Assembly (NCBI GenBank): GCA_031081675.1
Contig: JAVHLZ010000002.1
Coordinates: forward strand, 33,167 to 97,166
DNA from: Armatimonadota bacterium
Lineage (GTDB): Bacteria; Sysuimicrobiota; Sysuimicrobiia; Sysuimicrobiales; Kaftiobacteriaceae
DNA: 64,000 nucleotides
Direction: 5' to 3'
Shown here piece by piece: positions 57,252 to 63,564 of this stretch. Below the pieces are notes generated by a model. That model did no database searches and had not been told where the DNA came from. It was given only the letters and a program-made list of their open reading frames with translations. Both the position numbers and the translations under genes were made by a program. How positions within the stretch are numbered: position 1 is the stretch's first letter; every line of letters begins with the position of its first letter.

Positions 57252-57522
57252 CGGCCGTGCTAGGCGGGGAGCTAGCGGTTCCCTGTACCCGCAATCCGCT
57301 ATAGCGGGGCTGAACTCCCGTCCGAGGCGGCGCCGTTCAGGGTCTGGCCGGGACACGTGGCGACGAGGACCGGGTCCTGCGCGCCGGGACCTGACCAACC
57401 CCGCCAGGTCCGGAAGGAAGCAACGGTACGTCAGATCTCCCGGGTGCCGCAGGGCAGCCCGGTCGGAGCCGGCGACCCCGATCCCGCCTGGGCGGCGGGC
57501 GTCGACGACGGGTGCACGGCCG
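57252..57522 (+). ncRNA. ffs: signal recognition particle RNA, large bacterial type
   Basis: The domain IV core CAGGTCCGGAAGGAAGCAAC is near 57405-57425, inside a long helix. Upstream is an Alu domain: GTGCTAGGCGGGG, GCTAGCGGTTCCCTGTACCC and GCAATCCGCTATAGCGGGGC. GGCCGTGC at the 5' end can pair with GCACGGCC at 57514-57521, which sets the ends at about 57252 and 57522. The length of about 271 nt and the presence of an Alu domain match the Bacillus-type scRNA rather than the short 4.5S RNA. Its place near dnaX also follows Bacillus. Confidence 0.93.
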
Positions 57523-60862: not shown

Positions 60863-60952
60863 TGGCGGAGGGGGTGGGACTCGAACCCACAAGGGGCTTG
60901 CGCCCCGCCGGTTTTCGAGACCGGTCCCTTAGCCAGTTCGGGGCACCCCTCC
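60863..60952 (-). tRNA. tRNA-Ser (anticodon CGA)
   Basis: Minus-strand 90-nt class II tRNA. The acceptor stem is GGAGGGG/CCCCTCC, the discriminator G, and CCA is encoded. The anticodon stem CCGGT/ACCGG encloses the loop CTCGAAA, anticodon CGA. The long variable arm is GGGGC-GCAA-GCCCC. The T-arm GTGGG-TTCGAGT-CCCAC is intact. It reads TCG, a favoured serine codon in GC-rich genomes. Confidence 0.95.
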
Positions 60953-62475: not shown

Positions 62476-62505
62476 TTGACCGGGCGCCGGGGAGTGTGTT
62501 AGGGT
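62476..62505 (+). promoter_or_regulatory. putative promoter of the AspRS-core gene
   Basis: TTGACC (62476-62481) and TAGGGT (62500-62505) are 18 bp apart. Transcription from about 62512 would include the whole PyrR-type hairpin. The -10 match is modest. Confidence 0.4.
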
Positions 62506-62520
62506 GTGCCGCAAAGACGG

Positions 62521-62556
62521 CTCCTTTAAATCCCGTCCGGTGAGGCGGGTAAGGAG
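62521..62556 (+). promoter_or_regulatory. PyrR-type RNA hairpin overlapping the Shine-Dalgarno
   Basis: CTCCTT (62521-62526) pairs with AAGGAG (62551-62556). CCCG (532-535) pairs with CGGG (546-549) above an internal bulge TAAAT opposite T. The 10-nt loop is TCCGGTGAGG (62536-62545). The combination of a TTTAA bulge and a UCCnGnGAGG loop is the signature of PyrR-binding hairpins in pyr leaders. The 3' arm AAGGAG is itself the ribosome-binding site of the next gene, so PyrR bound to UMP/UTP should block translation. No pyr genes are in the window. Confidence 0.75.
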
Positions 62557-62565
62557 GTGGCAGAG

Positions 62566-63564
62566 ATGAGCCTTTCGGCCGGCCCGGCGCTGGAGCGCCC
62601 GGGCCTTTCGGTTGCCCCCCGCGGTGTGCCCCCCGAGGATCCTGTGGCTCTGGTCCTGCTGCGGGCTGATGTGATGCGCGCAGTGCGCGACGTCCTGACT
62701 TCCCAGGGATTCGTGGAGCTGGATACCCCCGAGATCACCGCCGGCACCGGAGCCTGCGAGAGCGTGCCCACGGTGTTCGGCCTGGACTTTCTGGGCCGGC
62801 GGATGTTCCTGCGCCAGACGGCCCAGCTGGACCTGGAGGTGGCCCTGGTGCGCTGGGGGATCCCCCGCGTGTACACCGTGGGGCGGTCGTTCCGGGCCGA
62901 ACCCCGCGCCGACGGCCGGCATCTGTGCGAGTTCACCCTGGTGGAGGCGGAGGCCCGGGAGTGGGACCTGGATGCGCTGGTCGCCCACCAGCAGGATCTG
63001 GTGCGGGCGGTCATCACCGCCGTCTGCGACCACCCGCTGCTGCCCCCCGGGCGCGGGGACGCCCTGGCGGCCGACCTGCAGCGCCTGACGGTGATCACCT
63101 ACGACGAGGCCGTCTCCCTGCTGGGGAAGGCCTGGGGAGAGGACCTGACCGCCGCCGACGAGGCGGCCCTGACGGCCCGGTTCGGCATCACCTGGGTCGT
63201 CCGGTATCCCGCCCCGATCAAGTTCTTCAACATGCACGATACCCGGGCCAACGGCGGGCTGACCGTGGACTGCTGCGATGTGCTGCTGCCGCTGGCGGGG
63301 GAGACGTTCGGGTCGTCGGTCCGCGAGCACGACCCCCAGCGCCTGCGGGACAAGCTGTACGGCAGTCCCATGTACGCCCAGCTCCTCGCCGCCGGCGGGC
63401 AGCCGGACGTCTTCGAGCCCTACCTGGCGCTGTTCGACGGACAGCCTCAGCGGCGGGCGGGCTACGGGCTGGGGTTTGACCGCCTGATGCAGTACCTGCT
63501 GGGCGTCCCGGACGTGCGCACCGCCATTCCCTTCCCGGTGGACGCCACCTACGGGCAGAGGTGA
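62566..63564 (+). CDS. AspRS/AsnRS catalytic-core paralogue, asparagine-synthetase-like
   Basis: A 332-residue class II synthetase-fold enzyme. Motif 2 is RVYTVGRSFRAEPRADGRHLCEFTLVEAEA and motif 3 is GYGLGFDRLMQYLLGVPDVRTAIPFPVD. GFVELDTPEITAGTGACESVPTVF resembles the active-site flap of Asp/AsnRS. The N-terminal OB-fold anticodon-binding domain is absent, so it is unlikely to charge tRNA. The best-known enzyme of this shape is the archaeal asparagine synthetase related to AspRS, which makes Asn from Asp. ATG 62566 is 8 nt after AAGGAGG; GTG 62557 is less likely. Confidence 0.8.
   Translation: MSLSAGPALERPGLSVAPRGVPPEDPVALVLLRADVMRAVRDVLTSQGFVELDTPEITAGTGACESVPTVFGLDFLGRRMFLRQTAQLDLEVALVRWGIPRVYTVGRSFRAEPRADGRHLCEFTLVEAEAREWDLDALVAHQQDLVRAVITAVCDHPLLPPGRGDALAADLQRLTVITYDEAVSLLGKAWGEDLTAADEAALTARFGITWVVRYPAPIKFFNMHDTRANGGLTVDCCDVLLPLAGETFGSSVREHDPQRLRDKLYGSPMYAQLLAAGGQPDVFEPYLALFDGQPQRRAGYGLGFDRLMQYLLGVPDVRTAIPFPVDATYGQR

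Follow-up and report, generated by a model that had tools for sequence, protein, structure and literature searches.

Entry into pyrimidine synthesis through CarAB, PyrB, and PyrC has, to our knowledge, been treated as universal, and the carbamoyl-phosphate synthetase CarB is known to carry a regulatory (UMP-sensing) domain of the MGS type. The locus described here lies in a window of 64,000 nucleotides (the whole stretch of DNA analysed), taken from an assembly of 2.29 Mb in 50 contigs with 98% completeness. With the PyrR element of Rfam (RF00515), its leader shares the UUUAA bulge region, the inner stem, the C-N-G-N-GA loop, a position before pyrimidine genes, and the presence of pyrR in the genome, whereas its own form is short and apparently translational, with the Shine-Dalgarno sequence in the 3′ arm, no terminator, and a score below the family cut-off. 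The gene that follows is synthetase-like and, as far as we found in the open-access literature, has had no earlier link to pyrimidines. With the catalytic core of asparaginyl-tRNA synthetase (AsnRS; 1x54, 9sh8), the gene product shares the fold (1x54 being the nearest solved one, TM 0.79 by query), the motif 2/3 and ATP residues, Glu127, and the lack of the AspRS-type Lys, while differing from it in the missing anticodon-binding domain, in the invariant Cys64-Glu65 and IKFFNM, and in its separate clade. Like the archaeal asparagine synthetase (PRK06462, 3p8t), it appears to be a free-standing class IIb core that has lost tRNA charging, but it falls far under the cut-off of that model, resembles it less than it resembles AsnRS, and is set apart by pyr synteny and MGS fusion. 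Compared with CarAB-PyrB-PyrC, the family occupies the same operon place before pyrD, under the same type of PyrR control, and its CPR members bear the same MGS domain type, whereas the catalytic part is homologous to none of the three enzymes.

The leader hairpin

The features of the locus are as follows.

62476-62505, + strand: candidate promoter, read from the sequence, TTGACC (62476-62481), 18-nt spacer, TAGGGT (62500-62505)
62521-62556, + strand: PyrR-type hairpin as a whole, from sequence, RF00515 match, and covariation
62521-62526, + strand: 5′ arm of the outer stem, CTCCTT, pairing 6/6 with AAGGAG at 62551-62556
62527-62531, + strand: internal loop, TAAAT
62532-62537 and 62544-62549, + strand: inner stem, CCCGTC/GGCGGG, 6/6 pairs, from the RF00515 match and compensatory changes in 18 elements
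62538-62543, + strand: loop CGGTGA of the C-N-G-N-GA type, within 62532-62549
62551-62557, + strand: 3′ arm of the outer stem (62551-62556) and Shine-Dalgarno sequence AAGGAGG
62566-63564, + strand: stand-alone AsnRS-like synthetase core of 332 aa, from PF00152, tree, and AlphaFold model

The initial annotation had read this leader as a PyrR-type hairpin whose 3′ arm sequesters the ribosome-binding site, and both parts were borne out. Over the 301 bases searched, the hairpin matched RF00515 at 38.0 bits (E 6e-4), and its 3′ arm is indeed the Shine-Dalgarno sequence. The "TTTAA bulge" described there is present as an element, but its first TT belongs to the outer stem, the internal loop proper being TAAAT. 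The ATG at 62566, preceded by this ideal Shine-Dalgarno sequence, was judged the best start, and an upstream in-frame GTG at 62557 was rejected. Transcription from the candidate promoter would, tentatively, begin the mRNA immediately 5′ of the hairpin; the promoter was not picked up by a consensus scan, and its -10 is weak.

The score of 38.0 bits misses the RF00515 gathering cut-off of 54 bits. In a survey of 43 genomes of the order, elements were found in 15, many of them immediately before pyrB; 17 of the 18 elements fall under the same cut-off although pyrB or some other pyr gene directly follows most of them, and the score of the window hairpin is thus taken as a matter of threshold. Across these 18 elements, the C-N-G-N-GA loop and the outer pairs CCUU/AAGG were invariant, and the inner stem showed compensatory changes (G-C/A-U, G-C/C-G, and C-G/U-A). 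The 96-nt leader had an ordinary folding energy (z 0.25), so that the significance of the hairpin rests on motif and conservation.

When the whole genome was searched with RF00515, two matches were obtained, the window hairpin being the best and the other lying just upstream of pyrD. Across 97.7% of the genome, exactly these two distinct sites fitted a stricter description (CCTTTAA, C-N-G-N-GA loop, stem of at least 5, AAGG), which gave 0 matches in simulated DNA (20 Mb) of the window's dinucleotide composition. The initial reading had been tied to a pyrR gene and to a similar element on a true pyr operon; pyrR was found at 248 bits (cut-off 138), and the second element sits on pyrD-pyrF-pyrE. 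On these sequence grounds, the window hairpin is very probably a real PyrR-type element. Since no terminator was found in the window's leader, its anatomy indicates that control is most likely translational: PyrR with bound UMP or UTP, whose binding and repression we infer, would favour the folded hairpin and so mask the Shine-Dalgarno sequence, and the synthetase-like gene would be translated only under pyrimidine scarcity.

The synthetase-like protein

PF00152 identified the 332-aa protein as a class II (D/K/N; class IIb) synthetase core at 136 bits, and an anticodon-binding domain was absent, as the initial description of a core without a tRNA-binding domain had it. The AlphaFold model was confident (pLDDT 91) apart from the first 21 residues. 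Against the AsnRS model NF003037, the protein scored 151 bits (cut-off 414), the match covering only the catalytic part (profile 130-444 of 451); against the archaeal asparagine synthetase model NF005052 (PRK06462), it scored 77 bits (cut-off 368), and it was also below the cut-off of the AspRS model. Direct comparison gave 69 bits with 3p8t versus 255 with AsnRS. In the tree, the protein and 34 wider relatives formed a monophyletic clade apart from AsnRS and AspRS, with support of 100/100. By the tests made, it is placed outside both the asparagine synthetase and the AsnRS families.

Alignment of 43 sequences revealed invariant R110 and E112 (motif 2), D238 and E246 (ATP/Mg), and R306 (motif 3), and the protein is predicted to be an adenylate-forming class II synthetase core with an intact ATP site. 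By alignment to the solved archaeal AspRS, the pocket has the AsnRS-type Glu127, and Leu90 where AspRS has Lys; this AsnRS-type side-chain pocket is kept in the 43 sequences, in which Cys64-Glu65 in the flipping loop and Asn222 in IKFFNM (Tyr to Asn222) are also invariant. Such a pocket (Glu127, Leu90) could point to Asn itself as the substrate, which weighs against the ring closure proposed below.

Pyrimidine genes in carriers of the family

In the window's genome, HMM searches of the assembly yielded no CarB, PyrB, or PyrC, an E. coli-type PyrC was not found, and tblastn over 97.7% of the assembly yielded no CarA, AsnA, or AsnB. The tblastn matches comprised PyrD, PyrF, PyrE, OTCase, ArgB, ArgC, ArgG, ArgH, a second ArgG-ArgH pair, carbamate kinase, GatA, and a non-discriminating AspRS. 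The absence of recognisable CarAB, PyrB, and PyrC from a genome that has PyrD, PyrF, and PyrE suggests that the enzyme is most likely an early-pathway ligase.

Candidates for hidden enzymes were rejected. The only TIGR00670 match in this genome was OTCase (431 bits), and the PyrC-like match was an allantoinase (507 bits). In the order-mates G029, G038, and G017, TIGR00670 matches of 245-251 bits passed, but sat in a purine-breakdown-like cluster, and the two that were aligned (G029, G038) were without the E. coli ATCase motif Arg229-x-Gln231.

The OTCase gene adjoins an ArcE-like gene (L147:8738-10953, contig C14), whose identity is one of resemblance, no family match having been obtained for it. 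Formation of carbamoyl phosphate from arginine without a carbamoyl-phosphate synthetase is established in Thermococcus kodakarensis (PMC13260591), and the OTCase/ArcE-like pair may likewise turn arginine into carbamoyl phosphate here, where CarAB is lacking. The second argG-argH pair lies at L250:3442-6065 (contig C10), besides the arginine cluster in L211.

Close orthologues (66-71% identity) were found in three order-mates, G017, G038, and G029, one of which is Armatimonadetes bacterium CSP1-3. In G017 and G038, pyrD and then pyrF follow directly 3′ of the orthologue (its stop codon overlapping the pyrD start as ATGA in G038), and the orthologue thus occupies the place held by pyrB-pyrC in order-mates. 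The operon of order-mate G016 reads element-pyrB-pyrC-pyrD-pyrF-pyrE-hpt-guaB-guaA-uvrD, and that of the window's genome is identical minus pyrB-pyrC. The earlier remark that no pyr genes surround the gene is therefore misleading, since these orthologues head pyrD-pyrF and the wider family is pyr-syntenic across phyla. Conservation of the hairpin upstream of orthologues, raised in the same annotation, was seen for one of the three. The G029 orthologue, which stands alone, has its own PyrR element (45.7 bits) followed by an intrinsic terminator, so that attenuation probably operates there, as judged from the anatomy; the G038 leader has a terminator but no convincing PyrR element, and in G017 the contig ends at the gene.

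Several minor features accompany these leaders. That of G038 (L016:572-747) combines a good promoter with a strong terminator, and another attenuation signal may act there. Where the G017 contig ends (L015:2377-2505), the first codons of the orthologue merge with unrelated DNA, probably an assembly chimera, which takes this leader out of the comparison. Just after the G029 orthologue lies a mini-ORF, ATG-(AAC)8-TAG, with a good Shine-Dalgarno sequence (L014:2490-2519), encoding a peptide of eight asparagines; this is a single case.

A scan of GTDB genomes for the family gave 46 loci, and in 22 of them the gene was flanked by a same-strand pyrD, pyrE, or pyrF, in several phyla (Hymenobacter, Sericytochromatia, Oligoflexia, one other bacterium, many CPR, and one Pacearchaeota). 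The archaeal genes are mostly solitary, without pyr neighbours, which counts against a pyrimidine role. The CPR proteins end in an MGS domain (PF02142), and at several CPR loci the neighbours of the synthetase-like gene are an argininosuccinate synthase that likewise carries an MGS domain and a cytosine deaminase/AtzC-related amidohydrolase. Genes for argininosuccinate synthase with the MGS domain fused at its C-terminus lie next to or near the synthetase-like gene at L079:3200-4888, L072:3435-5048, L069:4209-5816, and L083:4096-5715.

Among the 43 carrier genomes, with the caveat that an absence from a MAG may be an assembly gap, PyrB passed its cut-off in 4, PyrC in 1, and CarB in 6, compared with PyrB and CarB in 14/14 and PyrC in 11/14 control genomes. 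No PyrB was found in four Hymenobacter genomes of 4.8-6.0 Mb, and the PyrC-like proteins examined there (one per type) were rejected as allantoinase and dihydropyrimidinase. G063 and G090 have PyrB and no PyrC match. G094 has CarB, PyrB, and a PyrC-like gene in addition to the family member, so that a replacement enzyme would be redundant there, which speaks against the proposal below. The clade of the window protein branches deeply, apart from those of CPR and Hymenobacter, and a function shared across clades is therefore suggested by synteny.

A proposed early step and its alternatives

The initial annotation had offered, as a fallback, that the enzyme has a pyrimidine-related reaction, and synteny, MGS fusion, and gene absences favour this reading. 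We consider it highly likely that the gene product acts in pyrimidine synthesis upstream of PyrD and, with the exact reaction left aside, probable that it is a PyrR-controlled AMP-forming ligase of early de novo synthesis. The enzyme would be a paralogue of the catalytic AsnRS core in which tRNA binding has been lost, occurring in carriers that appear to have no recognisable PyrC and nearly always no PyrB. In the reaction that we think likeliest, ATP would activate the beta-carboxyl of an aspartate derivative, with N-carbamoyl-aspartate as first choice, as an AMP ester, whereupon the ureido nitrogen would close the ring to dihydroorotate in place of PyrC. Placement at the PyrC step follows from the presence of PyrB without a PyrC match in G063 and G090; ring closure as the reaction of this enzyme is nonetheless a tentative assignment, which we hold somewhat less likely than its opposite, and the substrates are deduced.

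With CarAB and PyrB missing, the ureido group would have to come from partner enzymes. In CPR, these may be the MGS-bearing argininosuccinate synthase and the neighbouring cytosine-deaminase-like amidohydrolase, with argininosuccinate, by speculation, as carrier and the amidohydrolase releasing ornithine. Against this, the window's genome is missing the proposed partner amidohydrolase and its argininosuccinate synthase has ordinary arginine work; the amidohydrolase "amidoB" as an obligatory partner was rejected, being absent from all four close carriers, the window's genome included. In the full scheme, scattered bacteria, and possibly archaea, would reach dihydroorotate by another, non-homologous route built on the AsnRS-derived ligase (in CPR together with these two partners), PyrR-controlled in this lineage and independent of CarAB, aspartate carbamoyltransferase, and dihydroorotase. 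This scheme appears to us almost evenly balanced, leaning slightly toward doubt. In the open-access literature, no description of such an enzyme was found. If true, the scheme would give a core pathway an alternative entry beside CarAB-PyrB-PyrC, could explain UMP synthesis in organisms where pyrD, pyrE, and pyrF are present and the early steps are not recognisable, and would mean that the family is wrongly annotated by automatic pipelines as asparaginyl-tRNA or asparagine synthetases.

The alternative that survives best is that the enzyme alone makes dihydroorotate or N-carbamoyl-aspartate from Asp or Asn and bicarbonate, carbamate, or urea. It would account for the window-clade and Hymenobacter carriers, which have no proposed partner locally, for the many carriers without any transcarbamylase, and for the conservation of the AsnRS-type pocket in 43 sequences; however, CPR operons encode two more enzymes alongside, and we know of no precedent for partner-free one-carbon/nitrogen chemistry in this fold. 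We regard it as unlikely.

Somewhat less likely again is the asparagine-synthetase side branch put forward by the initial annotation, in which the enzyme converts Asp, NH3, and ATP to Asn and PyrR sets the share of aspartate that goes to asparagine and to pyrimidines. The core without a tRNA domain, as in the archaeal enzyme, the lack of AsnA and AsnB in the window's genome, the AsnRS-like pocket, and the poly-Asn mini-ORF after the G029 orthologue would fit this activity. The claim is not supported in view of the scores given above (77 of 368 bits; 3p8t at 69 versus AsnRS at 255), the head position in pyrD-pyrF operons, the MGS domain of the CPR members, and the loss of PyrB and PyrC; moreover, with a non-discriminating AspRS and GatA, free Asn is not required for translation.

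A ligase of salvage or of a side reaction, with the absence of CarAB, PyrB, and PyrC reflecting partial pathway loss and uptake of dihydroorotate or orotate, is improbable. PyrR in known bacteria has uracil phosphoribosyltransferase activity, and the genomes of CPR and DPANN carriers are reduced, both in line with salvage; yet PyrD, which needs a supply of dihydroorotate, is kept and co-regulated, the same pattern occurs in carriers with genomes of 2.3-6 Mb, and an MGS domain is the sign of a step under feedback control. That the hairpin arose by chance or is something unrelated, with the gene outside PyrR control, as its sub-cut-off score and ordinary folding energy might suggest, is most improbable in view of the empty 20 Mb simulation, the pyr linkage of both genomic matches, the element on the G029 orthologue, and the compensatory changes.

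Apart from the early-pathway ligase proposed here, a PyrR element was also seen to precede a PRK06886/cytosine-deaminase-like amidohydrolase gene in the order (L140:10217-11401 in G026, L144:9685-10875 in G023, and also in G020, G032, and G034), the same gene occurring in G013 as well. The order genomes with this PyrR-element amidohydrolase have no synthetase-like gene, and relatives of the amidohydrolase adjoin the synthetase-like gene in CPR operons. Elsewhere in the window, a bacterial large SRP RNA (57255-57519, + strand; 180 bits) and a tRNA gene (60866-60952, - strand) were identified.
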